Assembly: GCF_009769165.1 (NCBI RefSeq)
Contig: NZ_CP043476.1
Span: 2,983,001-3,047,000 of the forward strand
Reading direction: 5' to 3'
Source: Xanthomonas hyacinthi
GTDB taxonomy: Bacteria > Pseudomonadota > Gammaproteobacteria > Xanthomonadales > Xanthomonadaceae
DNA: 64,000 nucleotides
Each line of letters begins with the position of its first letter. The stretch's first letter is position 1. The notes beneath the pieces are model-generated. The model saw nothing but the letters and a program-made list of their open reading frames with translations, made no database searches and had not been told where the DNA came from. Positions 14,209 through 27,116 of this stretch are shown here, piece by piece. The translations under genes were made by a program, and so were the position numbers.

Positions 14209-14308
14209 GGGGATCGATCCGGAGGTGGCGTGAGGGCCGGGCGCGGCATCGGCCGGGCCGGCGGGGCGCTAGGGTACCATTCGCGCTTTGCACGCACCGG
14301 AACACCGC

Positions 14309-15169
14309 ATGATCCGCAGCATGACCGCCTTCGCCGGCGCCGAGCGCATCACTGCCTGGGGCACGCTGGGCTGCGAACTGCGCTCGGTCAACCACCGCTT
14401 CCTGGAAGTGGGCGTGCGCCTGCCGGAAGAGCTGCGCGCGCTGGAGCCGCAATTGCGCGAACGCCTGGCCGCGCGGGTCAGCCGCGGCAAGCTGGACCTG
14501 ATGCTGCGCCTGCGCGCGCCCGACGCGGCGCAGTCGCTGGCGGTGAACGAGCCGCTGGTCGAACAGCTGGCGGTGCTGGCGCAGCGGCTCGGCGCGCGCT
14601 TCCCGCAACTGCAGGTGCAGTTCGCCGACCTGCTGCAGCTGCCCGGCGTGCTGCAGGGGCAGGCGGTGGATCCGGCCGCGCTGCAGGCGCAGGCGTTGGA
14701 ACTGCTGGACGAGGTGGTGGCCGAATTCGTCGCCGCGCGCGAGCGCGAAGGCGGCAAGCTGGCCGGGGCCATCGTCGAGCGCGTCGATGCGGTCGAGCGC
14801 ATCGCCGCCGAGGTCAAGGAGCTGATCCCGGCCATCCGCGAGGGCCAGCGCGCCAAGCTGGCCGCGCGCCTGGCCGACCTGCCGCACCCGGTCGATCCCG
14901 GCCGCGCCGAGCAGGAGCTGGTGCTGTGGCTGCAGAAACTCGACGTGGACGAGGAGCTGGACCGGCTCGGCAGCCACATCAAGGAAATCCGCCGCGTGCT
15001 GCGCCAGCCCGAGCCGGCCGGGCGGCGCCTGGATTTCCTGCTGCAGGAATTCAACCGCGAGGCCAACACCCTGGGTTCCAAGTCGGTGGACAGCCGCACC
15101 TCCAATGCGGCGGTGGAACTGAAGGTGCTGATCGACCAGATCCGCGAGCAGGTGCAGAACCTGGAATAG
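14309..15169 (+). CDS. yicC: YicC/YloC family endoribonuclease
   Basis: A 286-residue protein starting MIRSMTAFAGAE with SVNHRFLEVGVRLPEELR, the YicC N-terminal signature, and ending RRLDFLLQEFNREANTLGSKS...VELKVLIDQIREQVQNLE, the conserved C-terminal DUF1732 helices. The family has been shown to have endoribonuclease activity in some bacteria. The ATG at 14309 is preferred to 14288 because the conserved MIRSMT sequence begins there. Its divergence from rph matches conserved context. Confidence 0.93.
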   Translation: MIRSMTAFAGAERITAWGTLGCELRSVNHRFLEVGVRLPEELRALEPQLRERLAARVSRGKLDLMLRLRAPDAAQSLAVNEPLVEQLAVLAQRLGARFPQLQVQFADLLQLPGVLQGQAVDPAALQAQALELLDEVVAEFVAAREREGGKLAGAIVERVDAVERIAAEVKELIPAIREGQRAKLAARLADLPHPVDPGRAEQELVLWLQKLDVDEELDRLGSHIKEIRRVLRQPEPAGRRLDFLLQEFNREANTLGSKSVDSRTSNAAVELKVLIDQIREQVQNLE

Positions 15170-15223: not shown

Positions 15224-15955
15224 TCAGCGTTCGCGCAGGAAGAAGTCCACCGGCACCACCACCTGCACCGGGTCGCCGTCGATCTCCGGCGGCGGCGCCG
15301 GCAACGGGCTGGCCCGCTGCACCGTCGCCAACGTCTCGCTGTCCAGCGTGTCGTGGCCGCTGCCCTGGACGATGCGGATCGCGCTGGCATGGCCGCGCCG
15401 ATCCACGGCGAATTGGACCTGGACCACGCCTTCCTGGCGGCGCCGTTGCGCCGGCCGCGGGTAGCGCTTGTAGCGCTGCAGATGGCCCAGCACCTGCGCC
15501 TGCCAGGTGGCGCGCAGCTGTTGCGCCACGCCGGACAGCGATTGCGCCGCGGCATAGCGGCTGGCCGGCGGCGCCGCCACGCTGGGCGGGGCGCTGGCCT
15601 GCGCGGCGCTGGACGCTTGCTGTTGGTCTTGCGCCGCCGCCGCCGGCTGCGCTTCTTCCAGGTCGGCATGCAGCGGTTGCGGTGGCGGCGACGCCGGCAG
15701 CGGCGCACGCACGCGCGGTGCCTGGCGTCGCTCCTGCTGCGGTGGACCCGGCGGCACATCGGTCGGTGGCGCCGGCGGCGCGGTCGCGGCAGGTGCCAGC
15801 TCCAGCATGAGCGCCTGCGCCGGAGCAGCGGGCGGTGGCCGGTCGCGCGCCGGCCAGCACAGCAGCGCGGCGACGAGTGCCGCATGCGCCGCCAGTACGC
15901 CGCCGAGGCTGAGCAGCCAGCGACGCAGCGCCCGCGCCCGCGGCCCCGCGCTCAT
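15224..15955 (-). CDS. tonB: TonB energy-transducing protein of the heme locus
   Basis: A 243-residue periplasm-spanning TonB. One N-terminal membrane helix (about 12-35) contains a His in LGGVLAAHAALVAALL, the position that matters in TonB-ExbBD coupling. A Pro/Ala/Gln-rich periplasmic spacer (about 40-155) and a C-terminal domain (about 160-243) follow, with YKRYPRPAQRRRQEGVVQVQF, the usual YP...RxxEGxVxVxF. It overlaps exbD by 4 bp. It is the last gene of the heme operon, so it probably serves the receptor encoded 5 kb upstream. Confidence 0.92.
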   Translation of the reverse strand: MSAGPRARALRRWLLSLGGVLAAHAALVAALLCWPARDRPPPAAPAQALMLELAPAATAPPAPPTDVPPGPPQQERRQAPRVRAPLPASPPPQPLHADLEEAQPAAAAQDQQQASSAAQASAPPSVAAPPASRYAAAQSLSGVAQQLRATWQAQVLGHLQRYKRYPRPAQRRRQEGVVQVQFAVDRRGHASAIRIVQGSGHDTLDSETLATVQRASPLPAPPPEIDGDPVQVVVPVDFFLRER

Positions 15956-16380
15956 CGGTCGGCCGGCTCCAGCCCGACCAGCGCGACCTTCAGGTAGCCC
16001 GCATCGCGCAGCGCGTCCATGGTCTGCATCAGTTCGCCGTAGGCCACCGCACGGTCGGCGCGCAGGAAGATGCGCTGCGTGCGGTCGCCGCGGGTCAGTC
16101 GGTCCAGTGCCGGCTGCAGCGCATCGCGCTCGATCCGGGTATCGCCGAGGCGCAGGCTCAGGTCCTTGCCCAGGGTCAGGTAGACCGGGTCGCGGTCCCT
16201 GGGCTGCGGCGCCGCGGTACTGGCGGGCAGTTCCACCGGCACATTCACCGTGGCCAGCGGCGCGGCGACCATGAAGACGATCAGCAGCACCAGCATCACG
16301 TCGATCAGCGGGGTGACGTTGATCGCATGGTTCTCGTCCAGCGCATCGTCGTCGTCGTCTCGGTTGGTGCGGATCGCCAT
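15952..16380 (-). CDS. exbD: ExbD/TolR family biopolymer transporter
   Basis: A 142-residue inner-membrane protein with one membrane segment, INVTPLIDVMLVLLIVFMVA (about 20-39). It includes the conserved proton-channel Asp of ExbD. A periplasmic domain follows (DPVYLTLGKDLSLRLGDT..., IFLRADRAVAYGELMQTMDALRDAG). It works with ExbB to pass proton-motive force to TonB. It ends by overlapping tonB and lies 10 bp after exbB. Confidence 0.94.
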   Translation of the reverse strand: MAIRTNRDDDDDALDENHAINVTPLIDVMLVLLIVFMVAAPLATVNVPVELPASTAAPQPRDRDPVYLTLGKDLSLRLGDTRIERDALQPALDRLTRGDRTQRIFLRADRAVAYGELMQTMDALRDAGYLKVALVGLEPADR

Positions 16381-16390
16381 GCCGGTGTCC

Positions 16391-17140
16391 TCACTCCATG
16401 CCGGCCATGGACGCGCCTTGCGCAGCGGGCCTGGATGCCTGATGGCGGTCCAGGTCGCGCGACACCAATTGCTGCACGCCGGCCGACAGATCGCCCAGCT
16501 GCTGGCGCAAGCCGCCCAGCGTGCGCGCGAAATGGTTGTAGATCACCACCGCCGGGATCGCGGCGACCAGGCCCAGCGCGGTCGCGAGCAATGCCTCGGC
16601 GATGCCGGGCGCGACCACCGCCAGATTGGTGGTGTTGGCACGGGCGATCCCGACGAAGCTGTTCATGATGCCCCACACGGTGCCGAACAGGCCGACGAAC
16701 GGCGCGGTGGCGCCGATCGTGGCGAGCAGGCCGGTGCCCTTGCGCAGCTGCCGCGCATGGCCCAGTTCGATCCGCTCCAGGCGCGAGGCCAGCCGTTCCT
16801 TGATCCCGGCCGTCTCCTGCAGGCCGCTGGAGTGCCGCAGTTCGGCGCGGGCTTCGCGCAGCAACAGCTGCGCCGCAGGGACCGCCAGCGGCGGGCGGCG
16901 CTCGGCATCGGCCAGGTCCTGCGCTTGCGACAGCGCCGTGCGCGCGGCCTGCAGCGCCCGCCCGAGCCGCGCCAACTCCCAGCTCTTGGCCACCAGGACC
17001 GTCCAGGTGGCGACCGAGGCGATGGCCAGGCCGACCATCACCGCCTGCACCACCAGGTCGGCGTGCAGGAACATCTGCCAGGGCCCCAGGTCGGGTGGCA
17101 GCACGGGGGGCGGAGCGATGTCAGCGTGCATGGTCGTCAT
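16391..17140 (-). CDS. exbB: ExbB/TolQ family proton channel
   Basis: A 249-residue protein with three membrane segments: about 30-52, then two in the C-terminal half in LLATIGATAPFVGLFGTVWG and AEALLATALGLVAAIPAVVI, both signature ExbB stretches. It forms the pentameric channel around ExbD. The start at 17140 overlaps the Fur-like gene by 20 bp; an ATG at 17131 (MHADIAPPP) is an equal alternative. It is in one run with exbD and tonB and belongs to the heme-uptake locus. Confidence 0.93.
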   Translation of the reverse strand: MTTMHADIAPPPVLPPDLGPWQMFLHADLVVQAVMVGLAIASVATWTVLVAKSWELARLGRALQAARTALSQAQDLADAERRPPLAVPAAQLLLREARAELRHSSGLQETAGIKERLASRLERIELGHARQLRKGTGLLATIGATAPFVGLFGTVWGIMNSFVGIARANTTNLAVVAPGIAEALLATALGLVAAIPAVVIYNHFARTLGGLRQQLGDLSAGVQQLVSRDLDRHQASRPAAQGASMAGME

Positions 17141-17465
17141 CCAGCGGATCGGAACGGGGGGCGGGGGTGTGCGTTTGCGTCATGGCGTGGGCATGCGCCG
17201 CGTCCGGCAGCAGGCCGGCCGATTGCAGGCAGGCCAGCACCCGGTACCAGGCCGATGCCGAGATCGCGTAGCCGGCGTCGCGCGCGGCGGCGTGCAGGTG
17301 CTGCGGCGTCAGCTGGCCGTACGCGCTGAGCACTTGCGGCGCCAGCCGCACCGCCGCCAGGCGCGCGGAGGTGACGTTCAATCCAGCGCCGCGCAGCAGC
17401 GCCGAAGACGGATCGGCGCGCCTTGCATGCCGGTGGCGACGCCGCGCGCTGATCTTGCCGCGCAT
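17121..17465 (-). CDS. Fur-like winged-helix protein lacking the metal/dimerisation domain
   Basis: A 114-residue protein. Residues about 24-90 (LRGAGLNVTSARLAAVRL... then SASAWYRVLACLQSAGLL) align by eye with the Fur DNA-binding domain pattern (LKxAGLKVTxxRLxxL... TVYRVLxxFxxAGxv). Fur proteins normally have another 60 residues with His/Cys metal sites and the dimer interface. Here the protein instead ends in a short polar tail (HAMTQTHTPAPRSDPLDDD) that overlaps exbB. Its ATG overlaps the DUF454 stop (TGATG). It may be a DNA-binding regulator without metal sensing, or a decaying gene kept in register by overlaps. Confidence 0.65.
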   Translation of the reverse strand: MRGKISARRRHRHARRADPSSALLRGAGLNVTSARLAAVRLAPQVLSAYGQLTPQHLHAAARDAGYAISASAWYRVLACLQSAGLLPDAAHAHAMTQTHTPAPRSDPLDDDHAR

Positions 17466-17860
17466 CACCGCGCTCCCGGCGCATCGGCGGCGCGGTGCGG
17501 CGCGGGACGCGACAACACGTAGGCGGCGCTGCCGGCGAAGAACAGGCCCACGCCCAGCGCCAGCTTCCAGCCCGGATGCGCACCGCACCAGAACAGCACG
17601 TAGCCCACGCCCATGCCGGCACCGGCGAAGCACTTGCCGCGGCGCGTGATCGCGCCCTGTTCGCGCCACAGCCGCAATGCGGCGCCGTAGCGGGGATGCT
17701 GCAGCAACCATGCCTCCAGCCGCGGCGAGGAGTGCGAGAAGCACCATGCCGCCAGGATCAGGAAGATCGTGGTCGGCATCACCGGCAGCAATGCGCCGAT
17801 CAGGCCCAGCGCCAGCATCAGCAGGCCCAGGCAGAACCAGGCGCCGCGGCTCAGCGCCAT
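17465..17860 (-). CDS. DUF454 (YbaN family) inner-membrane protein
   Basis: A 131-residue hydrophobic protein with FCLGLLMLALGLIGALLPVMPTTIFLILAAWCFSHSSPRLEAWLL, the signature of the YbaN/DUF454 family, then a second hydrophobic block (about 90-115). In other bacteria DUF454 genes are often found with heme oxygenase or TonB-dependent uptake genes; the function is unknown. The start at 17860 is chosen because it begins just before the first helix. An ATG at 17899 would overlap hemO by 14 bp and is also possible. Confidence 0.82.
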   Translation of the reverse strand: MALSRGAWFCLGLLMLALGLIGALLPVMPTTIFLILAAWCFSHSSPRLEAWLLQHPRYGAALRLWREQGAITRRGKCFAGAGMGVGYVLFWCGAHPGWKLALGVGLFFAGSAAYVLSRPAPHRAADAPGAR

Positions 17861-17885
17861 CGCCGCGACTCCGTGCGGCACGGCG

Positions 17886-18494
17886 TCATCGCGCGCCATC
17901 CGGAAGGTAGGTGTCGACATGGGCATAGACGCGATCGAACGCGGCGCACGCCGCAGCGACCACTGCCTGCTCCTGCGCAGGATCCAGCGGCACGCTGTCG
18001 AGCGCGGCGGTGAACTGGCGCCAATGCCGCGCGCGCCCGTCGGGGTGGCCGGCGAGATGGCGCGCGCCGAACTGCTCGTGCAGTCCCAGCTTGGCGGCCA
18101 GCTTGGCCAGGATCGCCGCGCCCAGGTTGGAACCTTCTGCCACGTACAGCCAGCCCAGCGCGTCGACCTGTTTTTCGTAGTGGCGGCCGTCCGGCGCTGG
18201 CAGCGGGTGCACGGCGGGGACCGCGACGCCCAGATCGGCCAGGTCGGCCAGCAGTTGCGGCAGGCGCCGCCGCTGCGCCAGTTCGGGGACCACGCTGGCG
18301 AGCACCGGATTGCGGTACACGCTCTCCATGTCGCTGTGGAAGCAGTACTGCACCTGCACGAAGCGCGCATAGTTCGCGCGCGATGCGAAGGGTTGCGCGG
18401 CCATGATGCGCTGGTCCAGGCGCGCATGCGCCTCGTGGGTGGCGGCCTTCAGGCGCTGGCTGCGGGTGGTGGTGTCGGCGAAGCATTCGGTCAT
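17886..18494 (-). CDS. hemO: Biliverdin-producing heme oxygenase
   Basis: A 202-residue bacterial heme oxygenase that cleaves heme to biliverdin, CO and Fe2+, releasing iron in the cytoplasm. The proximal heme ligand is probably His23 in LKAATHEAHARLD (human HO-1 pattern LKEATKEVH). The distal-helix region is recognisable in ALGWLYVAEGSNLGAAIL. The length matches PigA/HemO-type enzymes. It follows the Slam gene by 75 bp and precedes DUF454 in the same direction. It supplies the final intracellular step of the heme-uptake system. Confidence 0.92.
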   Translation of the reverse strand: MTECFADTTTRSQRLKAATHEAHARLDQRIMAAQPFASRANYARFVQVQYCFHSDMESVYRNPVLASVVPELAQRRRLPQLLADLADLGVAVPAVHPLPAPDGRHYEKQVDALGWLYVAEGSNLGAAILAKLAAKLGLHEQFGARHLAGHPDGRARHWRQFTAALDSVPLDPAQEQAVVAAACAAFDRVYAHVDTYLPDGAR

Positions 18495-18569
18495 GGCGCG
18501 GGCTCGTGGTCGGTGGGGCAGGGGCGCGGGTGAGTAGCGGGCAGTGCGGAGGAGGCACGCGATCCGGAG

Positions 18570-20063
18570 TCAGAACACGCGCTCCAGCTTCAGGCTGATC
18601 GCGTTCTTGTCGTAGCCGTACAGCCAGTCCACGTTGCTGTGGACGCGGTTGTGGCGCAGGGTGAGCAGGGGCGTGAAGCCGGCGAAGGCCAGGCGCGGCG
18701 CCTTCAGCACGAAGGTGTAGTTCTGCTCGTCGTCGCGGCGGCGCGCGCCGAGCACGGCGCTGTAGGCGCTGTAGTCGCGGTGCCGATACGAGGCGAACGC
18801 GCTGCCGACGAAACCGGCCGGCCACTGCAGCGACGCGCCCAGCCGCGCGCCGCGCTGCAGGTAGCCGTTCGCGGTTTGCTGTGCATCGCTGGCCACCACG
18901 TCGATCCCGCCGAACACGGTCCAGCGCGGACCTAGGCTGCGGAAATAGGTGGCGTAGGCCGAACGCACGCCGCCGTCGTAGTTGCGCGCGTAGTCCTGGC
19001 GCCGGTAGCGCATGTCCTTGTAGTCGGCTTCCAGCTTCAGCAGCGCGTTGGGCGACAGCGTCCAGCTCCACTCCCCGTGCACGCCCCAGGCCGCGTACAG
19101 CGCGTCGTTGCCCCAGGCGTAGTACTCGAACGTCGGCGCCAGCGAAATGCCGTGGCGGCCGCTGCGGTAGCTGTAGCCGGCCTGGGTGGTCGAGGTCAGT
19201 TCGTTATAGGCGCTGTTGTCGCGATAGCCGTAGCCGAACAGCAGCGTGCGCAGGTACAGGCCATGGTGGCCGCGCAGCGGCAGGCGCTTGTCGAGGCTGG
19301 CATCGTAGTCCACGCCGCCGGCGGCGATCGCGTCGGGCAGTTGCCGGTCGATGTAGCAGAAGCCGCTGCTGTCGGCGAGCAGGCAGGTGCGGCTGGCCGA
19401 ACTGCGGTTGAGGTTGTCGTTCCAGGTCGGGCCGAACGCGAACGCGCCGCTCCAGGCGCGGCGGCCGGCCAGCGCGCGCTGGAAATTGTCCATGCTCTTG
19501 CGCACCCCGGCGGTCCTGGAATCGTCGGTATCGACGGCGGCGGCGATCGCGTCGAACAGCTCGCCCGCCTCGCGGTCCTGCTGGTCCTCGAACAGCACGC
19601 GGGCCAGCTCAAGGCGGCCGGGCAGGAAATCCGGCTTGAGCGCGAGCAGCGCGCGGTAGTGGCGCTCGGCGTCCGCATAGCGGCCATCGCGCCGCGCCAG
19701 CGCGCCCTGCGCGTAGTGCACCAGTAGCGGGTCGCGGTCGGCCAGGGTCAGGTATTCGTCCAGGAAGCGTTGCGCCGCGTCCCATTGCTTTCGCTGCAGC
19801 GACAGGTATAGCGCGCGGCCGACATCGCTGGCGGTGTGCTCGACGGTATGCGACTTGCCGTCGATGTCGAGCGTGGGCCGTGGCGCGTCGTCGTCGAGTT
19901 CGTCCTTGAGCAGCTCGCGTTCGCGCTGCAGCGCATGCCGCTCGACGCCCTGGTCGAGCATGCGGCGGGTATCGTCGCGTTCCTGCGCGGCGGCGGGGAT
20001 CGCCGGTAGCGAAGCTCCCAGGACGAGGAGGGCGGCGAGCAGCGCAGGGGAAATGGAATGCAT
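18570..20063 (-). CDS. Slam-family outer-membrane translocator (surface lipoprotein assembly modifier, type XI secretion)
   Basis: A 497-residue protein with a signal peptide (MHSISPALLAALLVLGASLP, cut after PAAAQ). A TPR-containing N-terminal domain follows (about 85-190: LSLQRKQWDAAQRFLDEYL, GRYADAERHYRALLALKPDF). The C-terminal beta-barrel (about 200-497) has alternating strands and a terminal aromatic, LKLERVF. This is the architecture of Slam proteins (DUF560/PF04575), which move TbpB-like or hemophilin substrates across the outer membrane. Its partner is encoded directly upstream. The ATG at 20063 is used since the signal peptide begins there. Confidence 0.88.
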   Translation of the reverse strand: MHSISPALLAALLVLGASLPAIPAAAQERDDTRRMLDQGVERHALQRERELLKDELDDDAPRPTLDIDGKSHTVEHTASDVGRALYLSLQRKQWDAAQRFLDEYLTLADRDPLLVHYAQGALARRDGRYADAERHYRALLALKPDFLPGRLELARVLFEDQQDREAGELFDAIAAAVDTDDSRTAGVRKSMDNFQRALAGRRAWSGAFAFGPTWNDNLNRSSASRTCLLADSSGFCYIDRQLPDAIAAGGVDYDASLDKRLPLRGHHGLYLRTLLFGYGYRDNSAYNELTSTTQAGYSYRSGRHGISLAPTFEYYAWGNDALYAAWGVHGEWSWTLSPNALLKLEADYKDMRYRRQDYARNYDGGVRSAYATYFRSLGPRWTVFGGIDVVASDAQQTANGYLQRGARLGASLQWPAGFVGSAFASYRHRDYSAYSAVLGARRRDDEQNYTFVLKAPRLAFAGFTPLLTLRHNRVHSNVDWLYGYDKNAISLKLERVF

Positions 20064-20165
20064 CGAATCGATAGGCCAGGTGGTGGGCAGGACTGGCTTG
20101 GCCTTGGCTTGTCCTACCCGGATCATCGACTGAACGGCGAAGAGCGAATGCTCAGCGCGTTGCGC

Positions 20166-20993
20166 TCAGTTCTTGGTGCCGCCGAAGGCGGTGTCGTACT
20201 GGGTGCCGCTGAAGTTGACGATGCCGGCCAGGGCGGTCTGGCCGCTGTAGAACTGGCCGGACACCGCGCCGCCGGAGGCCACCAGGCTGCCCGATTGCGT
20301 TGCCAGGGCGGTGCTGCCGGAAATGCTGGCATTGCTGTTGATGGTGGCCGACCCGATGTTCACCGTGTAGCCGCTGCCGCTGTTGGCGATGCTGCCGGTC
20401 AGTGTGCTGGTGTTGAAGTTGGCGGTGAACACGCCCGACAGCAGGTTGCCGTTGCCGGCGTTGGCCGCGGCGTTGTAGTTGTTGATGCCGACCACGTTGT
20501 AGGTGGCCGAGCCGGTGGTGGGGACGGTGGTGTCGCCGTTGTCGCCGATGTAGTAGACGGTGCGGGTGCTGTCGCCGCTGGTGCCGTACGCGGACCATTC
20601 GCCGAACCACACGTCCTGCGCGCCGACCTGGGCAAACACGAACACGCCCAGATTGTCGTGGCTGTCCGGCGCGCCGGTATACGGGAAGTTGAGCTTGTGC
20701 ACGAGCTTGGTGCCGTCGCTGGTGCCATCCTTGTTCCAGTCCACCGCGCTGTTGGTCTTGGTGCTGTAGGCGGTGAGTCCCTGGAAATCGACTTCGTTGC
20801 CCAAGCCGGTCGAGTTGACCGAAATGCCGGCCTTGCCGCTGCTGTGCGGGCCGCCGTTGACGTCGGATTCGCCGACCTGGACGTTGCCGGTATTGCTCGA
20901 GGCGCCCTTGAAATTCGCCGCCTGGCTCGCGCCGATGGTGGCCATGGCGAGCACGGACAGCGCGAGCGCGGACAGTGTGCGATGCGTCTTCAT
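20166..20993 (-). CDS. Hemophilin-like Slam-dependent secreted hemophore
   Basis: A 275-residue exported protein. The signal peptide is MKTHRTLSALALSVLAMATI with likely cleavage at SQA/ANF. There is no lipobox cysteine, so it should be released, not lipid-anchored. The N-terminal domain (about 26-170) carries DSHDNLGVFVFAQVGAQDVW and FGEWSAYG, resembling the hemophilin handle. The C-terminal part (about 170-275) is a Gly/Ser/Asn-rich beta-barrel ending AVSGQFYSGQTALAGIVNFS, like the TbpB-type barrel that Slam recognises. The RBS AAAGGAG precedes ATG 20993. Its position between a TonB-dependent receptor and Slam supports a role as a heme scavenger. Heme ligands cannot be assigned. Confidence 0.78.
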   Translation of the reverse strand: MKTHRTLSALALSVLAMATIGASQAANFKGASSNTGNVQVGESDVNGGPHSSGKAGISVNSTGLGNEVDFQGLTAYSTKTNSAVDWNKDGTSDGTKLVHKLNFPYTGAPDSHDNLGVFVFAQVGAQDVWFGEWSAYGTSGDSTRTVYYIGDNGDTTVPTTGSATYNVVGINNYNAAANAGNGNLLSGVFTANFNTSTLTGSIANSGSGYTVNIGSATINSNASISGSTALATQSGSLVASGGAVSGQFYSGQTALAGIVNFSGTQYDTAFGGTKN

Positions 20994-21088
20994 ATTGCCA
21001 ATCTCCTTTGCGGATTGAGGTACTGCAGTTGTGCGGACGTCCTGTCCTTGACGGTCACTTTCTCCAATGTCGCCAGCGGCCGCCGCGC

Positions 21089-24000
21089 TCAGAAACGCGC
21101 GGACAGGCTGAGTTTCAGGGTCCGTCCGGGTGCGGCCACCGCCGAGCGTGTGGCCGGGTCGACGTAGTACTGGTCGGTCAGGTTGGTGCCGGTCAGCTCC
21201 ACGCTCAGGTTCTCGCGCAGCTTGTAGCTGGCGTAGGCGTCGAAGATCAGGGTCTTGCCCCAGGAGAACGGCACGTTGAAGTTGTAGACCAGGCGTCCGC
21301 CGCCGCTTTGGATCGAGTGCGCGCGGTACCAGTCCAGGTCGGGGTTCTCGTATTGCTTGAAGTAGGCGGCGCGCCCGCCGATCTCCAGGCGCCGGTCGAG
21401 GAAACGCCCGCCCAGCGACCAGGTCGCCGACAGTTCCGGCGCGGCCTGGGTCAACAGGTAACCGCCGACGAAACCGTAGTCCACGCAGTTCGGCACGGCC
21501 TGGCTGCCGAGCGCATAGCCATTGCTGGTGCTCAGGATGGCGGCGGTGCTTTCGTCGCAGACCTGGTTTTCCAGGCTGTAGTTCACGCCCAGGTCGGTGA
21601 ACAGGCGGCCGCCGTCGTAGCGCGCCTGCAATTCGACGCCGCGGATCGTCTGCTTGTCGACGTTGTCGAACTTGAAGCGCGGATCGCGTTCGATCACGTC
21701 GCGGGTCTTGTTGACGTAGTAGGCCAGCTTGACGTCGGCGGTGGCGTCGGGCCCCAGCAACTGGCCAAGATCGTGGACGTAGGCCAGTTCCCAGTTGTAG
21801 GCATGCTCCGGCTTCAGCCCCCAGGGATTGATCGAGGCGGAGAACGCCAGCGTGCTTTCGAACATGCTCGGATAACGCAGCGTCTCGGCGTAGCGCAGAT
21901 AGGCGCGGCTGTAGTCGCCGAAGTCGAGCGTGGCCGAGAAGAACGGCGTCCAGCCATGGTCCTTGCGCTTGCTCGCCTGCGCGACGTAGCTGGTGCCGAC
22001 CGCGCTGGCGCGGCACAGCCCATCGACGACGTTCGCGACCCCGTCCAGCGTGCCGTTGAGGCAGGCATTGCCGGACTTGCTGTAGTTGCCGTCGGCGTCG
22101 GCTTCCCAGGGCACGCTGTGGTTCACCGTGTAGCTGGTCGGCACCGTGGCCAGCAGTTCGTTGGCGAGCTGGTCGTAGATGTCCTGGGTGATCGCGCCCA
22201 GGTCCAGCAGCATCTTGTAGACCTCCAGGCTGTCGCCGGCCATCGCCTCGCGTTGTTGCTGGGTATAGGGTTGCGTGGTGGCGTACTCCACGTTGTATCC
22301 GGTCGTCGCGCTCGCCCGTATCTGTCCGGGGTGGGCGGCAAGGAAATCGTCGTAGGCCCAGTACGACGAGTAGCGCGCGCCTGCACTCAGGCTGAGGACA
22401 TCAAGCGGCCGCCACTCGACATTGAAGTTTGCCTGCCATTCCTGGCGGCGTCCGGCGCGCGGGTACATGCGCCAGCCGTCGCTGGTGCCGAAGTAGGCAT
22501 CGTCCGAGCGCAGCTTCTCGCGCTGCCAGCTGCCGCCCAGGGTCAGGTCCAGCGTATCGCTGAAGCGGATCTTGTTGCTGAGGGTGATGCCGTTGCGCGT
22601 GTTGCTGGCGTTGGCCAGCGCGGTGTTCTTGAGGGTCGGGTCGTAGCCCCACTGCGGATCGCCCTGGGCGAAGTTGGGGAAGCCGCCGGCGGTGTAGGTG
22701 TCGCTGGCCGTGTCGGTACGCCATAGGTTGGCGTACAGGTCGATCCAGCGGCTGTCCTCGGGGCGCCACTTGTATTCCAGGTTGTAGGCCTTGGCGTCGA
22801 CCCGGCTCAGCGGCCACTGGATCGCGCCGCGGTCTTCCGAGTTCATGATCCGCGAGGGCATGATCTCGCCGTAGTGCGAGAGGCTGTCGCGGTAGCCCAG
22901 TTGCAGCGCCTGCGCGTCGTCGATGCGCCAGGTGGCCTTGAACAGCCACGATTCCATCCGGCTGGAGGTATTGGTCACCTCGTTGCCGGGTTTCCAGTAG
23001 TTCGCCATCGAGGTGATGTAGTCCTCGGCATAGGAACTGCGTTCGTCGCTGTAGTAGCCGGTGTTGTGCTTGCCGGCGTAGTAGTTGCCGCGTTCGCGGT
23101 AGGCATAGGCGGCCAGCAGGTCGAGCCGGTCGCTCGGGCGCCAGCCCAGGGCCACCCGGTAGGCGTAGTCCTCGCCGGCGAAGACGTTGTAGCCACCGCC
23201 GCCGGTCCTGGGCGTGACCCGCAGCGTCTGGTCCGCATACGGAATGGCCGGCGTGTCCTGCGGAAAGCCTTCCACCGTGCGGTAGTCCTCGCCGGTGTGC
23301 AGGGTCGGCAGCCGCGGCGAGGTCGCATTGCTGCTGCCTTCGAGCTTGACTTCGCCGCCGAAGCGCTGGCCCGGCGCGACGACGTCGTCCACGTCCAGGG
23401 TGTCGATGACCATCGCGCCGCCGACGCCGGTGGTGACGTTGCGGGTCAGCGACGGGCCCTTGAGGATCTGGATGCCGCCGATCAGGAACGGGTCGATGTA
23501 GTTGCGGTTGCTGGCGCCGTTGTAGCCGCGCCAGACCGTCAGCGCCTGCTCGGTGCCGTCGATCGTCACCGGCACGCGGCCGGGGCCCTGGATGCCGCGG
23601 ATGTTGATGTCCAGCGCGCCGCTGTTGCGGGCGTCGCCGCTGAACACGCCGGCGACGCCGTTGAGCAGGTCAGATGGAGTCGCGCCCTTGTAGCGTTCGA
23701 CCTCGCTGCGGCCGATGTAGGCGGTCGACAGGTCCAGGTCGTAGACGTCGTCGTAGCCCTGCACATCGCGCGCGCTGCCGGTGGCGTCGCCGCGCGCGGC
23801 CCCGGCAACGTTCAGCGTATCGGTAACGATCGCCGGCGCGTGCTCGCCCGGCGCAGGGTCGTTGGCCGCGGCCTCCAGCGTGACCGCATTGGCGCCGGTG
23901 CGGCGCGGCACCAAGCCGCTGCCCTGCAGCAGCCGCTGCAGGGCCTGCTCGGCGCTGTAGTCGCCCTTCACCGCTGGGGCGACGAGGGCGTAGGGCTCCT

Positions 24001-24238
24001 GTCTGCTGTACAGCACCTGCAATCCGGTTTGGGCGGACAGCTTCACCAGCGCGTCGGGCAGCGGCTGGGCGTCCAGGTCGATGGCATAGCGTGCCGGCTG
24101 CGTGCTCGCCGCAGTGGCCGGCGATTGCGCGGATGCCGTGGTCGCGGCGCCGAGCAGGGACAGCGCGATGGTGCTGGAGAGCAAGGTACGGCAGGCAGGA
24201 AAGTGGCGCCTGCGGACGGCTACGGTGTCGGTGGACAT
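21089..24238 (-). CDS. TonB-dependent receptor with signalling (STN) domain, probable heme/hemophilin receptor
   Basis: A 1049-residue outer-membrane receptor. The signal peptide is about 1-37. The STN domain (about 50-110: YAIDLDAQPLPDALVKLSAQ, then VKGDYSAEQALQRLL) signals to FecR. A plug (about 165-300: SDLLNGVAGVFSGDARNSG, DINIRGIQGPGRVPVTIDG) and a 22-strand barrel ending LKLSLSARF complete it. The barrel has AETLRYPSMFES, where heme receptors of the HasR/HemR type carry their conserved FRAP-like loop. The substrate is inferred from flanking hemophilin, Slam and heme oxygenase genes. The short distance and poor RBS before ATG 24238 leave some doubt about the exact start. Confidence 0.88.
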   Translation of the reverse strand: MSTDTVAVRRRHFPACRTLLSSTIALSLLGAATTASAQSPATAASTQPARYAIDLDAQPLPDALVKLSAQTGLQVLYSRQEPYALVAPAVKGDYSAEQALQRLLQGSGLVPRRTGANAVTLEAAANDPAPGEHAPAIVTDTLNVAGAARGDATGSARDVQGYDDVYDLDLSTAYIGRSEVERYKGATPSDLLNGVAGVFSGDARNSGALDINIRGIQGPGRVPVTIDGTEQALTVWRGYNGASNRNYIDPFLIGGIQILKGPSLTRNVTTGVGGAMVIDTLDVDDVVAPGQRFGGEVKLEGSSNATSPRLPTLHTGEDYRTVEGFPQDTPAIPYADQTLRVTPRTGGGGYNVFAGEDYAYRVALGWRPSDRLDLLAAYAYRERGNYYAGKHNTGYYSDERSSYAEDYITSMANYWKPGNEVTNTSSRMESWLFKATWRIDDAQALQLGYRDSLSHYGEIMPSRIMNSEDRGAIQWPLSRVDAKAYNLEYKWRPEDSRWIDLYANLWRTDTASDTYTAGGFPNFAQGDPQWGYDPTLKNTALANASNTRNGITLSNKIRFSDTLDLTLGGSWQREKLRSDDAYFGTSDGWRMYPRAGRRQEWQANFNVEWRPLDVLSLSAGARYSSYWAYDDFLAAHPGQIRASATTGYNVEYATTQPYTQQQREAMAGDSLEVYKMLLDLGAITQDIYDQLANELLATVPTSYTVNHSVPWEADADGNYSKSGNACLNGTLDGVANVVDGLCRASAVGTSYVAQASKRKDHGWTPFFSATLDFGDYSRAYLRYAETLRYPSMFESTLAFSASINPWGLKPEHAYNWELAYVHDLGQLLGPDATADVKLAYYVNKTRDVIERDPRFKFDNVDKQTIRGVELQARYDGGRLFTDLGVNYSLENQVCDESTAAILSTSNGYALGSQAVPNCVDYGFVGGYLLTQAAPELSATWSLGGRFLDRRLEIGGRAAYFKQYENPDLDWYRAHSIQSGGGRLVYNFNVPFSWGKTLIFDAYASYKLRENLSVELTGTNLTDQYYVDPATRSAVAAPGRTLKLSLSARF

Positions 24239-24285
24239 GGAGTCGGGTATCGGGAAGAAGAAGTTGTTATGCGAACGAAAATCAT

Positions 24286-24310
24286 TACGTTCTTCCTGAT
24301 GACACGTTCC
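24286..24310 (-). promoter_or_regulatory. Candidate ECF-sigma promoter for the receptor gene
   Basis: On the minus strand GGAAC (24310-24306) and CGTA (24289-24286) are 16 bp apart, the usual spacing and sequence type of ECF-sigma promoters. It lies about 50 bp before the receptor ATG and is a likely target of the linked FecI-type factor. A Fur-box-like stretch (24271-24290, about 12 of 19 positions by eye) overlaps the -10. Confidence 0.45.
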
Positions 24311-24377
24311 GACGCGGCCGAACTACCCAGTCGGTTTGCCGATCCCATTGCGGATCGGTGTTTTGTTTATATTCGGT

Positions 24378-25427
24378 TCACTTTTTCTGGCGGCTTGGCG
24401 TTGCCTGGGTCGCCGGCCGGTACACGACGGTCGCCCAGCCCAGGTGCACTGCGTCCAGCTGCAGGCTGTCCAGCAGCACCTGCAGGCTGGCATCCGGATC
24501 GGCGATGCTGAACGCACCGGAGACCGGCAGCGCGCGCACGTCGTCGCCGCGCAACTGGATGCTGCCGTGGCGGTAGCGCGAGAGTTCGCGGACCACTTGC
24601 GACAGCGGCGTGTTGTAGAAGACCAGTTGCCGCCGCCGCCACGCCGCCACCGCGAACGGATCGCGCCCGGCCTCGCGGCGCACCGCATGTCCCGCCAGCC
24701 ATGCGCTTTGCCCGGCGCCGAGTACCGCGCCGGTTCCTCCTGCCGGCGGGCTGACGGCGACGCGGCCTTCGACCACGCTGACCTGCGCGCGGTCGTCGTC
24801 GAGGCGGACGTTGAATGCGGTTCCCAGCACGCGTGCGCTGCCGCCGGCGCTGTCGACGACGAAGGGCCGGCGCGGGTCGCGCACGACCTGGAAGAACGCT
24901 TCGCCGCGCAGCAGCCTGACCGAACGCGTGTCCTTGCGCATGTGCACGGCGATGGCGCTGTCGGTATTGAGCGTGACGACGCTGCCGTCCTCAAGTTGCA
25001 ACTGCCGCATCGCGCCGATCCGGGTATAGGCATCGCTGCGCAGGCGATCCAGGCCGCCGCCACCGAGCCAGGTGCCGGCGCCGATCGCCAAGGCCAGCGC
25101 GGCGGCCAGTGCCTGCCAGTGCCGTCGCGCCGACCGGCGCCGCGTCGGCGCGACCGCCGTCGCCGCCGCGATTGCGTGCGAAGGCGACGGCTCGGTCTGC
25201 AGCGGATCGATGCCGAGTTCGTCGCCGACGTCGGCAGCGGGCCGCTGCAGCATGCCCAGCAGCGCGCGCGCCGCCGCCATCGCCTGCGTCCGCGCGGCGG
25301 GAGCGACGGCTAACCAGTCCCGGTAGCGCTGCAAGGCGTCGGCATCGCCGGGCGCTGCGTCCAGGCGCAGGATCCAGTGGACGGCTTGGTCGAACAGGTC
25401 GTCGTCGACGGAGGAGTTTTCGGGCAT
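24378..25427 (-). CDS. FecR-type anti-sigma/sigma regulator
   Basis: A 349-residue inner-membrane regulator. The cytoplasmic N-terminal DUF4880 domain (FDQAVHWILRLDAAPGDADALQRYRDWLA) binds sigma. A membrane helix (about 108-125: ALAAALALAIGAGTWLGG) and the periplasmic FecR domain (LEDGSVVTLNTDSAIAVHM..., LRGEAFFQV, GTAFNVR, VVEGRVAV) follow. A C-terminal part resembles the STN-binding region (YNTPLSQVVRELSRY). The ATG at 25427 (MPENSSVDDDLFDQA) starts at the conserved N-terminus. It relays receptor occupancy to the sigma factor encoded upstream. Confidence 0.92.
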   Translation of the reverse strand: MPENSSVDDDLFDQAVHWILRLDAAPGDADALQRYRDWLAVAPAARTQAMAAARALLGMLQRPAADVGDELGIDPLQTEPSPSHAIAAATAVAPTRRRSARRHWQALAAALALAIGAGTWLGGGGLDRLRSDAYTRIGAMRQLQLEDGSVVTLNTDSAIAVHMRKDTRSVRLLRGEAFFQVVRDPRRPFVVDSAGGSARVLGTAFNVRLDDDRAQVSVVEGRVAVSPPAGGTGAVLGAGQSAWLAGHAVRREAGRDPFAVAAWRRRQLVFYNTPLSQVVRELSRYRHGSIQLRGDDVRALPVSGAFSIADPDASLQVLLDSLQLDAVHLGWATVVYRPATQATPSRQKK

Positions 25428-25537
25428 CGTCTGCCTATCCGCAAGGAATGGGGTTGTCGGCCGCGATGAAGGCAATCCGCGGGTCACTCACGAGCATGAC
25501 GGGTCCAGCGCTGCCGATCCCGTAGCCGCGCGCTGGC

Positions 25538-26083
25538 TCAGCTGTCCCGGCCAGCCTCCCGCAGCCGGCGCCGGCAATGGGCGACCGCGACGGCGATGTG
25601 CTTTTCCACCGTGCGCGGCGAGATGCCCAGTTGCGCGGCGATCTGCGCCATGCTCAGGTTGCGGCCGCGGAACAGCACGAAGACCCGCCGGGCCTGGTCG
25701 GGCAGGTCGCGGATCGCTTGCAGCAGCACAGCGTATTCCTGCTGGCCCAGGGTCGCGTCGTAGGGCGATGGGCCCGCGCTGGGAACGTCTTCCGCCGCGT
25801 TCGCAGGGGCCAGAAAGCGGCCGCGCGATGCGGCCAGCCGTTGCCGGTCCAGCGCCACATTGTCGACCACGCGGCGCAGGTAGGTGACCGGATCGCGGAC
25901 GCCATGGGTGCCGGCGGCGTCGCCACCGGCCGGGCGCGATGCCAGGCGGATCCAGGCGTCGTGCACGATGTCGCCCGCGGCGCCGGCGTACTTGCGCGTT
26001 GCATAGCGGTGCAGTTCCGCGTAGCTGCTTTCCAGTTCGTCCGCCAGCGAGGCAGGCGTGGCGGGAGAGGGAGGAGTGGACAT
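25538..26083 (-). CDS. FecI-type ECF RNA polymerase sigma factor
   Basis: A 181-residue iron-starvation-type sigma factor. Region 2 is about 20-85 (ELHRYATRKYAGAAGDIVHDAWIRL, YLRRVVDNVALDR). Region 4 is about 120-175, with the helix-turn-helix MAQIAAQLGISPRTVEKHIA. FecI, FecR and an STN receptor in this order form a cell-surface signalling unit. It is first in the heme locus, and a sigma-70-like promoter overlapped by a Fur-box-like palindrome lies 34 bp before its ATG, so it is probably made when iron is short. Confidence 0.93.
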   Translation of the reverse strand: MSTPPSPATPASLADELESSYAELHRYATRKYAGAAGDIVHDAWIRLASRPAGGDAAGTHGVRDPVTYLRRVVDNVALDRQRLAASRGRFLAPANAAEDVPSAGPSPYDATLGQQEYAVLLQAIRDLPDQARRVFVLFRGRNLSMAQIAAQLGISPRTVEKHIAVAVAHCRRRLREAGRDS

Positions 26084-26116
26084 GGCATCCGTCCAGGACC
26101 ACGGAAGAGGTGTGTG

Positions 26117-26145
26117 AGTTTAGTGAGGATGAGATTTATTCTCAA
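26117..26145 (-). promoter_or_regulatory. Sigma-70-type promoter with overlapping Fur-box-like operator, upstream of the sigma factor gene
   Basis: On the minus strand TTGAGA (26145-26140), 17 bp, then TAAACT (26122-26117). The palindrome TGAGAATAAATCTCA (26144-26130) is a 7-1-7 inverted repeat with one mismatched pair, close to the Fur consensus TGATAAT-A-ATTATCA, and covers most of the -35 and half the spacer. Repressor binding there would block polymerase. Confidence 0.65.
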
Positions 26146-26486: not shown

Positions 26487-27116
26487 ATGCGCGGCACTCT
26501 CTACATCGTTGCGGCGCCATCCGGCGCCGGCAAGAGCAGCATCGTCAACGCCACCCTGGCGCGCGATCCGCAGATCGCCCTGTCGATCTCCTTCACCTCG
26601 CGCGCGCCGCGGCCGGGCGAGCGCCATGCCGAGCACTACCACTTCGTGTCCGCCGATGCGTTCCAGGGCATGATCGATGCCGGCGATTTCTTCGAATACG
26701 CCCGCGTCCACGGCGACTGGAAGGGCACCGCACGGCAATCGGTGGAGCCGCAGCTGGCCGCCGGCCACGACGTGCTGCTGGAGATCGACTGGCAGGGCGC
26801 GCGCCAGGTGCGGGCCAAGGTGCCCGATGCGGTCAGCGTGTTCATCCTGCCGCCGTCGCGGGCGGCGCTGGAGCAGCGCATGCGCAAGCGCGGCCAGGAC
26901 AGCGAGGCGGTGATCGCGCAGCGGCTGGCCGCGGCGCGCGAGGAGATGTCGCACTACGCCGACTTCGACTACGTGATCGTCAACGAGGACTTCGACACCG
27001 CGGTGGACGAGATGTGCGCGATCTTCGTCGCCAGCCGCCTGCGGCGCCTGCCGCAGCAGCAGCGCCACGCCGACTTGATCGCGGCGCTGCTCGATCAGGA
27101 TCAGGCAACTGGCTGA
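26487..27116 (+). CDS. gmk: Guanylate kinase
   Basis: A 209-residue enzyme phosphorylating GMP to GDP with ATP. It starts MRGTLYIVAAPSGAGKSSIV with the P-loop (APSGAGKSS). The GMP-binding stretch SISFTSRAPRPGERHAEHYHF and DVLLEIDWQGARQV are typical. The length and start agree with Gmk. It precedes rpoZ and spoT, the conserved gmk-rpoZ-spoT order, which links GTP supply with ppGpp metabolism. Confidence 0.97.
   Translation: MRGTLYIVAAPSGAGKSSIVNATLARDPQIALSISFTSRAPRPGERHAEHYHFVSADAFQGMIDAGDFFEYARVHGDWKGTARQSVEPQLAAGHDVLLEIDWQGARQVRAKVPDAVSVFILPPSRAALEQRMRKRGQDSEAVIAQRLAAAREEMSHYADFDYVIVNEDFDTAVDEMCAIFVASRLRRLPQQQRHADLIAALLDQDQATG

Follow-up and report, generated by a model that had tools for sequence, protein, structure and literature searches.

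A hemophilin-Slam-heme oxygenase locus of Xanthomonas hyacinthi with a putatively exchanged receptor-hemophilin-Slam block

The locus and its closest described counterparts

In the Has system of Serratia and Pseudomonas (HasI-HasS-HasR), a hemophore receptor with an STN signalling domain is combined with a FecR-type anti-sigma factor and an extracytoplasmic function (ECF) sigma factor. The same combination is found in the locus described here, which occupies positions 15224-26083 of the minus strand in a 64,000-nucleotide stretch of X. hyacinthi DNA (contig NZ_CP043476.1, positions 2,983,001 to 3,047,000; hereafter, the window). Its eleven genes specify, in order, an ECF sigma factor, FecR, a receptor with STN, hemophilin, Slam, heme oxygenase (HemO), DUF454, a short Fur-like product (FurL), ExbB, ExbD, and TonB. 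Compared with the Has system, hemophilin takes the place of HasA, and Slam (type 11) takes the place of type 1 secretion. HasR, the receptor of that different hemophore, which signals to an anti-sigma/ECF pair, is the nearest solved relative of the window receptor by sequence (E 1.9e-36).

The hemO cluster of Acinetobacter baumannii (heme cluster 2; HphA-HsmA-HphR) likewise brings together genes for ECF, anti-sigma, receptor, hemophilin, Slam, a TonB-related protein, and heme oxygenase (PMC8560813, PMC10483418), and the set given in PMC10483418 (ECF, anti-sigma, HphR, HphA, HsmA, TonB, and heme oxygenase) is found in the window locus; the A. baumannii cluster is likewise unevenly present at one chromosomal site. 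Unlike the A. baumannii cluster, the window locus has added ExbB and ExbD, carries FurL after DUF454, follows another gene order, and contains a receptor-hemophilin-Slam block that seems to have been exchanged. Relative to an Acinetobacter locus (L061), protein identity is 46% for hemophilin, 38% for Slam, and 45% for the receptor. FecIRA-like heme signalling has also been described in a xanthomonad, the HemI-HemR-HemAD system of Stenotrophomonas maltophilia, which is repressed by Fur and further induced by hemin (PMC12772443). As described in the available part of that source, its cluster comprises a short unknown gene, a TonB-dependent transporter, FecR, and ECF, with no Slam or hemophilin gene mentioned, and the idea that it is the same locus as that of the window is unsupported by this gene content.

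The sequence-only reading of this DNA had proposed that a Xanthomonas-type genome carries a complete hemophilin/Slam/heme oxygenase locus together with a dedicated FecI/FecR pair, and this is upheld: reading frames, Pfam, and NCBIfam place all of the named families in eleven collinear minus-strand genes, with family matches far above chance for ten of the eleven products and the Fur-like product as a weak exception. It had also supposed that such an arrangement is little described in Xanthomonas-like bacteria, which is largely wrong given the solved structure of S. maltophilia HphA (8GMM) and the published statistical association of Slam-type genes with heme oxygenase (137 of 1,111), DUF454 (118 of 1,111), and TonB domains (364 of 1,111) (PMC12282271). 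Because 8GMM comes from S. maltophilia, a hemophilin is already known in this bacterial family. Nothing was recognised as this locus or as FurL in a literature search by titles and the beginnings of abstracts (hemophilin, Slam, or hemophore with Xanthomonas or Stenotrophomonas; FecR/sigma; HphR), most subscription journals lying outside that search.

The identification of hemophilin itself rests on several kinds of comparison. The product matches both HphA domains, HphA_N and HphA_C, that is, the N-terminal heme clamp and the C-terminal 8-stranded barrel. A phmmer search of PDB sequences gave six distinct sequences, five of them titled hemophilin or haemophore (best 8gmm_A, 2e-43); the sixth, 9us7, is generally named, and its alignment is that of the A. 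baumannii chain. Structural similarity of the 20166-20993 product to HphA, on which the sequence-only reading depended, was checked with a predicted model (AlphaFold2, 27 sequences; mean predicted local distance difference test score [pLDDT] 81.7; predicted template modelling score [pTM] 0.81; residues 1-24 and 81-95 poor). In Foldseek, the first eight rows are all hemophilins (8GMM, 8GM3, 7RE4, 8GLO, and 6OM5 are matched), and the best is holo-HphA of S. maltophilia (8GMM; E 9.0e-22, TM-scores 0.71/0.84, 46% identity in the alignment). Released in 2024, 8GMM is the nearest solved structure, from the same family and of the same fold; the structure is reportedly the subject of Shin 2024. The axial heme ligands of A. 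baumannii HphA are H43 and H106 (PMC8560813). H50 and H112 of the window protein align with them in the 7re4 phmmer alignment, where the chain histidines, counted by hand, are numbers 33 and 96, an offset of 10 from the published numbering. Among 27 aligned hemophilins, H112 is retained in 26 and H50 in 21, and heme binding through these two residues is predicted on the strength of that alignment.

It might be argued that the product is instead a Slam-dependent surface lipoprotein of other function, such as an adhesin or a host-protein binder of the TbpB/fHbp group. Indeed, the matching NCBIfam entry (NF041636) is named "Slam-dependent surface lipoprotein," and the barrels of TbpB, LbpB, and fHbp appear lower in the fold list. 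However, a lipid anchor is unlikely because the precursor lacks any cysteine, and hence a lipobox, despite the NCBIfam name; its N-terminus, judged by eye only, resembles a signal peptide. In addition, the match to the HphA N-terminal heme-binding domain (2.2e-32), the retention of both heme ligands, and the neighbouring genes for heme oxygenase and a HasR-like receptor are not what a lipoprotein of this kind would lead one to expect, and we regard that explanation as hardly credible.

Other features of hemophilins were seen in passing. The window protein and those of L047 (genome G014), L056 (X. bonasiae), and L057 (boreopolis) have in common about 16-21 inserted residues in their N-terminal halves (window 20700-20762, residues 78-98), a segment that is poorly modelled (pLDDT <50 at residues 81-95). 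Tandem hemophilin genes are present in the A. baumannii record L061 (10010-11658), where the second copy has Q at the first heme-ligand position, and in two genomes of genus g29 (L096 and L097). Hemophilins of g29 are close to the 8GMM stretch (by eye, four loci: L096, L098, L114, and L118), and the g29 loci read ECF-FecR-receptor-hemophilin-Slam, phmmer finding no HemO, DUF454, or FurL within 20 kb.

The STN-bearing receptor, FecR, and ECF sigma lie side by side, with FecR and ECF directly upstream of the receptor gene, as in FecIRA and HasISR. Slam, with a tetratricopeptide (TPR) N-terminus and a SlipAM (DUF560) barrel typical of the type 11 secretion system (T11SS), adjoins hemophilin both here and in other loci compared. 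Taken together, these results suggest that the locus is a hemophilin-type heme-scavenging system for iron supply that contains an exchanged cassette, a reading to which we assign a probability of roughly 0.9. What computation shows is the identity of the genes, the fold, the conserved ligands in the alignment, the co-occurrence of the genes, the site, and the mosaic history; the function we infer by analogy.

Mosaic history of the operon

Evidence for an exchange comes from comparison of the window's genome (G000) with its site-mates, G007 and G013, which carry the locus at the same place, and with boreopolis (G061), which belongs to another genus. Protein identity of G000 to G007/G013 is 73/84% for ECF, 72/81% for FecR, 87/89% for HemO, and 84/93% for ExbB, and it is 63/63% for hemophilin and 69/69% for Slam. 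To G061, it is 78% for hemophilin, 69% for Slam, 27% for FecR, 23% for ECF, and 65% for HemO. When DNA identity between G000 and G013 is followed in 200-base steps, it runs at 78-98% from ECF to about 23290 (except for 71-73% in two steps near the FecR-receptor gap), at 47-88% from about 23290 through Slam, and at 88-97% from hemO on (except for 60% in one step at the broken FurL). G013 and G007, on the other hand, stay 85-99% identical across this middle block. Its 5' edge falls somewhere in about 23290-23790, and its 3' edge at about 18490-18690.

In trees, receptor residues 1-150 of G000, G014, and G015 join those of G007 and G013 (99/99), and a grouping with G061 is rejected by the approximately unbiased (AU) test (p 2.6e-6), as it also is for FecR (4.6e-6), ECF (9e-9), and HemO (0.005). 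Conversely, the site-mate group is rejected for hemophilin (1.1e-11), for receptor residues 600-760 (1.7e-10) and 760-1049 (0.003), for Slam (3.7e-4), and, weakly, for receptor residues 160-600 (0.03). Trees of FecR, HemO, DUF454, ExbB, and TonB do recover it, although the bootstrap values of 47-82 give it modest or low support, and it is not rejected for ECF (p 0.42). The trees of receptor pieces, hemophilin, and Slam used 15 of 35 receptor-hemophilin rows; those of FecR, ECF, HemO, DUF454, ExbB, and TonB used 10 to 13 rows, with the long DUF454 frames of G061 and G345 (387 and 360 aa) removed by a length filter. It should be noted that the long-hemophilin clade was named after the identities had been seen, so its p-values are not blind, and that the site-mate clade, named by genomic position and the nearness of flanking genes, was likewise named afterwards.

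The simplest account of these patterns would be that the receptor barrel, hemophilin, and Slam were replaced as a block. Among the sequences compared, that of G061 is the nearest to this cassette and is not shown to be its source; neither donor nor direction is assigned. Alternatively, the ligand-recognition parts (receptor loops, hemophilin, and Slam) may simply have diverged fast under diversifying selection in one lineage, with no exchange, a possibility that gains from the finding that the receptor region at about 620-790 is among the most variable between loci. Several results weigh against an exchange and some of them favour this alternative. The whole receptor does not discriminate (79/77% identity to G007/G013 versus 75% to G061), since residues 1-150 point to the site-mates and residues 600-760 to G061, and Slam is equally distant (69%) from G007, G013, and G061. 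Furthermore, the clade joining G000, G014, and G015 with G061 is weakly supported (hemophilin 81/87; receptor pieces 53-79% bootstrap), and for Slam it is neither recovered nor rejected (p 0.37). A narrower candidate, in which receptor loop 620-745 alone would co-evolve with hemophilin type, also fared badly and was dropped because other receptor windows correlate more strongly with hemophilin: the partial correlation is -0.08 to 0.21 in the covering windows and reaches 0.57 elsewhere, at 381-430. (It was computed on 35 receptor-hemophilin pairs, G048 [short contig], the Vibrio, Erwinia, Pantoea, Allopusillimonas, and Pusillimonas loci, and duplicates having been left out beforehand, with the better-scoring copy taken where a locus has two hemophilins.)

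Divergence within one lineage, however, does not fit the observation that receptor residues 600-760 and hemophilin of G000 are closer to those of another genus (hemophilin 78%) than to those of G007 and G013 (63%), the signalling part showing the reverse. Nor does it fit the AU tests, which reject the site-mate clade for the receptor pieces from residue 160 on, hemophilin, and Slam and the G061 clade for the first 150 receptor residues, FecR, ECF, and HemO. Thus, divergence without exchange appears unlikely. For the replacement of the block, we lean towards a fuller version: the receptor barrel, the hemophore, and the Slam translocon would constitute a single exchangeable specificity cassette, the resident block having been replaced by a foreign one through crossovers near the conserved plug and between Slam and heme oxygenase, leaving the STN domain together with the FecR and sigma factor native to it. 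In this version, FurL would be an offshoot of Fur that lacks the wing and is confined to such hemO operons. The whole receptor barrel seems to move with the cassette. The mosaic structure of the operon is new, no prior description having been found in the literature searched.

FurL and the regulation of the operon

A shortened Fur-like gene and DUF454 inside the locus had been pointed out from the sequence, and both are there. FurL corresponds to the helical part of Fur only. Its alignment with four Fur proteins covers just the DNA-binding helices, and its model is all-helical (mean pLDDT 71.4; pTM 0.50), lacking the winged hairpin, dimerization domain, and metal sites of Fur; because these regions are missing, it is not classed as a Fur. 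Its best fold rows are Fur proteins, matched weakly (E 0.02 and up). In a database search (7993 candidates scored), at least 52 matches were obtained. At least 8 of them are clusters with lengths of 94-115 residues (E < 1e-18), a number that counts the cluster of the window itself, and at least 44 are Fur-like proteins 140-170 residues long, with E-values of 2.4e-6 or higher and 55-61% of the query covered. A literature search for members of the Fur family without the dimerization domain found nothing, and a short gene derived from Fur in this way is new with respect to the literature searched. A PDB profile search ranked transcription activator-like (TAL) effector chains over Fur. Kinship with TAL-effector repeats was nevertheless rejected: the match involves a short stretch (about residues 38-90), 0 to 3 stretches per chain pass singly, and, given that Fur proteins were what the database and fold searches yielded, it was read as local resemblance added up across the repeats.

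Does FurL regulate the operon? In favour of a functional iron or heme regulator, intact copies lie beside the hemophilin loci of G014 and G015 (87-90% identity) and of G009, as well as within the hemO-DUF454 cluster of G071, a genome in which no HphA_C or SlipAM match was found when it was searched. The small family in the database and the Fur proteins at the head of the fold search are also compatible with such a role. However, the loss of the wing, dimerization, and metal-binding regions and the weak fold E-values are not, and the gene is a frame-broken remnant in G007 and G013 and would not fit into the DUF454-ExbB gaps of G012, G020, G415, and G193, which are too short for it. In addition, the ratio of nonsynonymous to synonymous substitution (dN/dS) for FurL among G000, G014, and G015 is 0.29, 0.61, and 0.60; the other ten genes reach 0.47 at most. 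A regulator of the operon is therefore an improbable description; FurL could represent a vestige, a leader that couples translation to that of exbB, with which it overlaps by 20 nt, or a small regulator.

From tight gene overlaps, the sequence-only reading had argued for one transcript. The overlaps are real but confined to HemO-DUF454-FurL-ExbB (14 nt between hemO and DUF454, if the latter starts at ATG 17899) and ExbD-TonB, with a 10-nt gap between ExbB and ExbD. The single transcript is doubtful, as the genes upstream of HemO are spaced by 75-139 bp and the 139-bp gap ahead of the receptor gene holds a conserved element. When the whole window was scanned with a 19-mer Fur-box consensus, the two best sites lay before ECF (26125-26143) and before the receptor gene (24271-24289), and both blocks are conserved in 8/8 copies of the locus at the yicC-gmk site. 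A putative sigma-70-like promoter, recognised by consensus only, overlaps the site upstream of ECF (1 such promoter-like site found versus 0.5 expected). A single promoter for the whole operon is unsupported by these conserved blocks and sites; the conserved Fur-box-like sites suggest two promoters, and two transcription units are more likely than one. On the operon strand, no terminator-like site was found between genes, the sole one on that strand (22347-22369) lying within the receptor gene. In the FecR-receptor gap, an inverted repeat at 24337-24360 is terminator-like on the opposite strand; visual comparison with the aligned site-mates shows no conservation of its letters.

Coordinates of the genes, putative sites and cassette, with their basis
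Feature	Positions	Strand	Basis
ECF sigma factor (FecI/HasI type), 181 aa	25538..26083	-	Sigma70_r4_2 E 2.4e-12; TIGR02937 above cut-off (NCBIfam)
FecR-type anti-sigma factor, 349 aa from ATG 25427	24378..25427	-	FecR E 1.1e-24, scan made from longer GTG start
TonB-dependent receptor, N-terminal STN signalling domain, HphR/HasR-like, 1049 aa	21089..24238	-	STN 1.5e-8, plug 3.5e-14, barrel 1.3e-23; HasR E 1.9e-36
Hemophilin (HphA), 275 aa, predicted heme ligands H50 and H112	20166..20993	-	HphA_N 2.2e-32, HphA_C 1.7e-38 (Pfam)
Slam (T11SS outer-membrane translocon), 497 aa from ATG 20063	18570..20063	-	SlipAM 1.9e-55, TPR_Slam 1.7e-25, scan from longer ATG start
Heme oxygenase (HemO), 202 aa	17886..18494	-	PF01126 E 3.3e-27
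DUF454 inner-membrane-like protein, 144 aa if ATG 17899	17465..17899	-	PF04304 E 5.2e-33; start picked from sequence
FurL, Fur-derived, 114 aa, helical DNA-binding part only	17121..17465	-	Pfam Fur 16.7 bits (below cut-off 23.1), alignment, model, fold search
ExbB	16391..17140	-	TIGR02797 301 bits vs cut-off 206; Pfam ExbB 7.1e-31
ExbD	15952..16380	-	TIGR02803 186 bits vs cut-off 153; Pfam ExbD 5e-26
TonB	15224..15955	-	TonB_C E 4.9e-18
Putative sigma-70 promoter TTGAGA-17-TAAACT, overlapping Fur-box-like site 26125-26143	26117..26145	-	consensus only
Second Fur-box-like site, before receptor gene, 13/19	24271..24289		consensus scan
Putative exchanged cassette: receptor barrel, hemophilin, Slam	18570..23290	-	200-base DNA identity profile, trees, AU tests

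ATG 26083 is the most likely start codon of the ECF gene, which would set the 5' limit of the locus at 26083 instead of 26145.

Genomic site, distribution, and proposed role

The locus is flanked by yicC (14288-15169) and gmk (26487-27116), both on the plus strand; rph lies beyond yicC, and rpoZ and spoT lie beyond gmk. Pfam identifies rph, yicC, gmk, and rpoZ; spoT is presumed from its sequence and place. Among 20 genomes of the genus, yicC and gmk are adjacent in 10, and in 7 (G000, G007, G010, G012, G013, G014, and G015) the locus borders gmk, yicC being on the opposite flank; the G015 locus is interrupted by a contig break, and in G010, where phmmer found no ExbB, ExbD, or TonB in the locus (L044), about 8 kb lie between DUF454 and yicC. 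In the remaining 3 (G001, G006, and G016), the two genes are kept apart by other DNA or by distance. G009 carries the locus at a different site and has an empty yicC-gmk arrangement, and Pseudoxanthomonas winnipegensis has it at the same yicC-gmk place (L059/L115). The occupation of this interval by the locus in part of the genus is new here.

The interval looks like an insertion hot spot, judging from what it holds in different genomes. In G006 (L139), it contains about 10 kb, in which genes for a Tle1-like lipase and an ECF sigma factor are found; in G016 (L140), about 6 kb; and in G010 (L141), about 8 kb of additional DNA that includes genes for an aminotransferase-domain protein and an MmyB-like regulator. 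Pfam was run on 10 of the 29 frames picked from these intervals (6/12, 2/7, and 2/10, respectively), and 6 of the 10 had no match. In Vibrio salilacus (L066, 4090-14640), a hemophilin locus adjoins gmk-rpoZ-spoT in the same relative orientation, with no yicC found by phmmer in the 6 kb on its other side. One record labelled Xanthomonas arboricola CFBP 7645 (NZ_MIGY01000001.1; L058/L109) appears to come from a genome (G345) placed in genus g17 rather than in that of the window, and its label may be wrong.

Of 395 genomes sampled from the family, 34 have HphA_C, and these belong to 9 of 54 genera. Within the genus, hemophilin is present in 8 of the 20 genomes, and the same 8 have Slam together with a strong match to heme oxygenase (E 4.4e-22 or better); in the other 12, heme oxygenase is matched only weakly (1.7e-9 or worse). 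ECF, FecR, receptor, hemophilin, and Slam occur together in all 32 tabulated loci, a table that leaves out the window's own locus, G048 (short contig), and 20 named records. The latter come from Xanthomonas, [Pseudomonas] boreopolis, Pseudoxanthomonas, Acinetobacter, Vibrio, Erwinia, Pantoea, Allopusillimonas, and Pusillimonas.

Some of the comparative results weigh against a heme-scavenging system under Fur control. NCBIfam gave no match at E <= 0.01 for the HemO protein, though Pfam did. When the 20 named loci were searched by phmmer with the window proteins (E <= 1e-4), the receptor was found in 20, ECF and Slam in 19 each, and FecR in 17; L071 (Allopusillimonas) is without three members of the ECF/FecR/receptor/Slam set, and L070 and L075 are without FecR. 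In several Vibrio loci, moreover, the receptor is about 3-4 kb away from hemophilin. The Fur-box-like sites are modest, each matching 13/19 positions, with 2 observed in the window against a mean of 0.5 in 10 first-order random sequences. In the stretches compared, stronger sites lie upstream of ECF in some other loci (17/19 in G061, for example), and weaker ones in the hemophilin loci of G009 and G020 (8 and 9 of 19); in g29 loci, the score is at most 12 before ECF and at most 10 before the receptor. Given these low scores, Fur control lacks support in some relatives.

A route for heme can be drawn by analogy with HphA/HsmA/HphR of A. baumannii and HasR of Serratia. In this model, hemophilin would cross the inner membrane via Sec and the outer membrane via the adjacent Slam, bind heme outside the cell with its two histidines, and pass it to the STN-bearing receptor. 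Import would be energized by TonB-ExbB-ExbD encoded in the same operon, and heme oxygenase would then open the ring to release the iron. Fur carrying iron would keep both the sigma promoter and the receptor promoter repressed; ligand bound to the receptor would signal through STN to FecR, releasing the ECF sigma factor and boosting the receptor operon. DUF454 and FurL would be accessories, with no role assigned. The receptor barrel, hemophilin, and Slam would form the specificity cassette, swapped as a block in the lineage of G000, G014, and G015 (or in that of its sister), with the signalling end and the heme oxygenase-TonB end retained during the exchange.

A complete hemophilin-Slam-heme oxygenase-TonB operon is now placed in Xanthomonas-type bacteria. 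Many of these bacteria live with plants, a setting with no obvious source of heme. If the cassette is real, the type of hemophore could change without rewiring regulation or energy supply. Furthermore, if the barrel, hemophore, and Slam move together, the specificity of hemophore for receptor and of hemophore for translocon would lie within the cassette, and signalling specificity would lie outside it.

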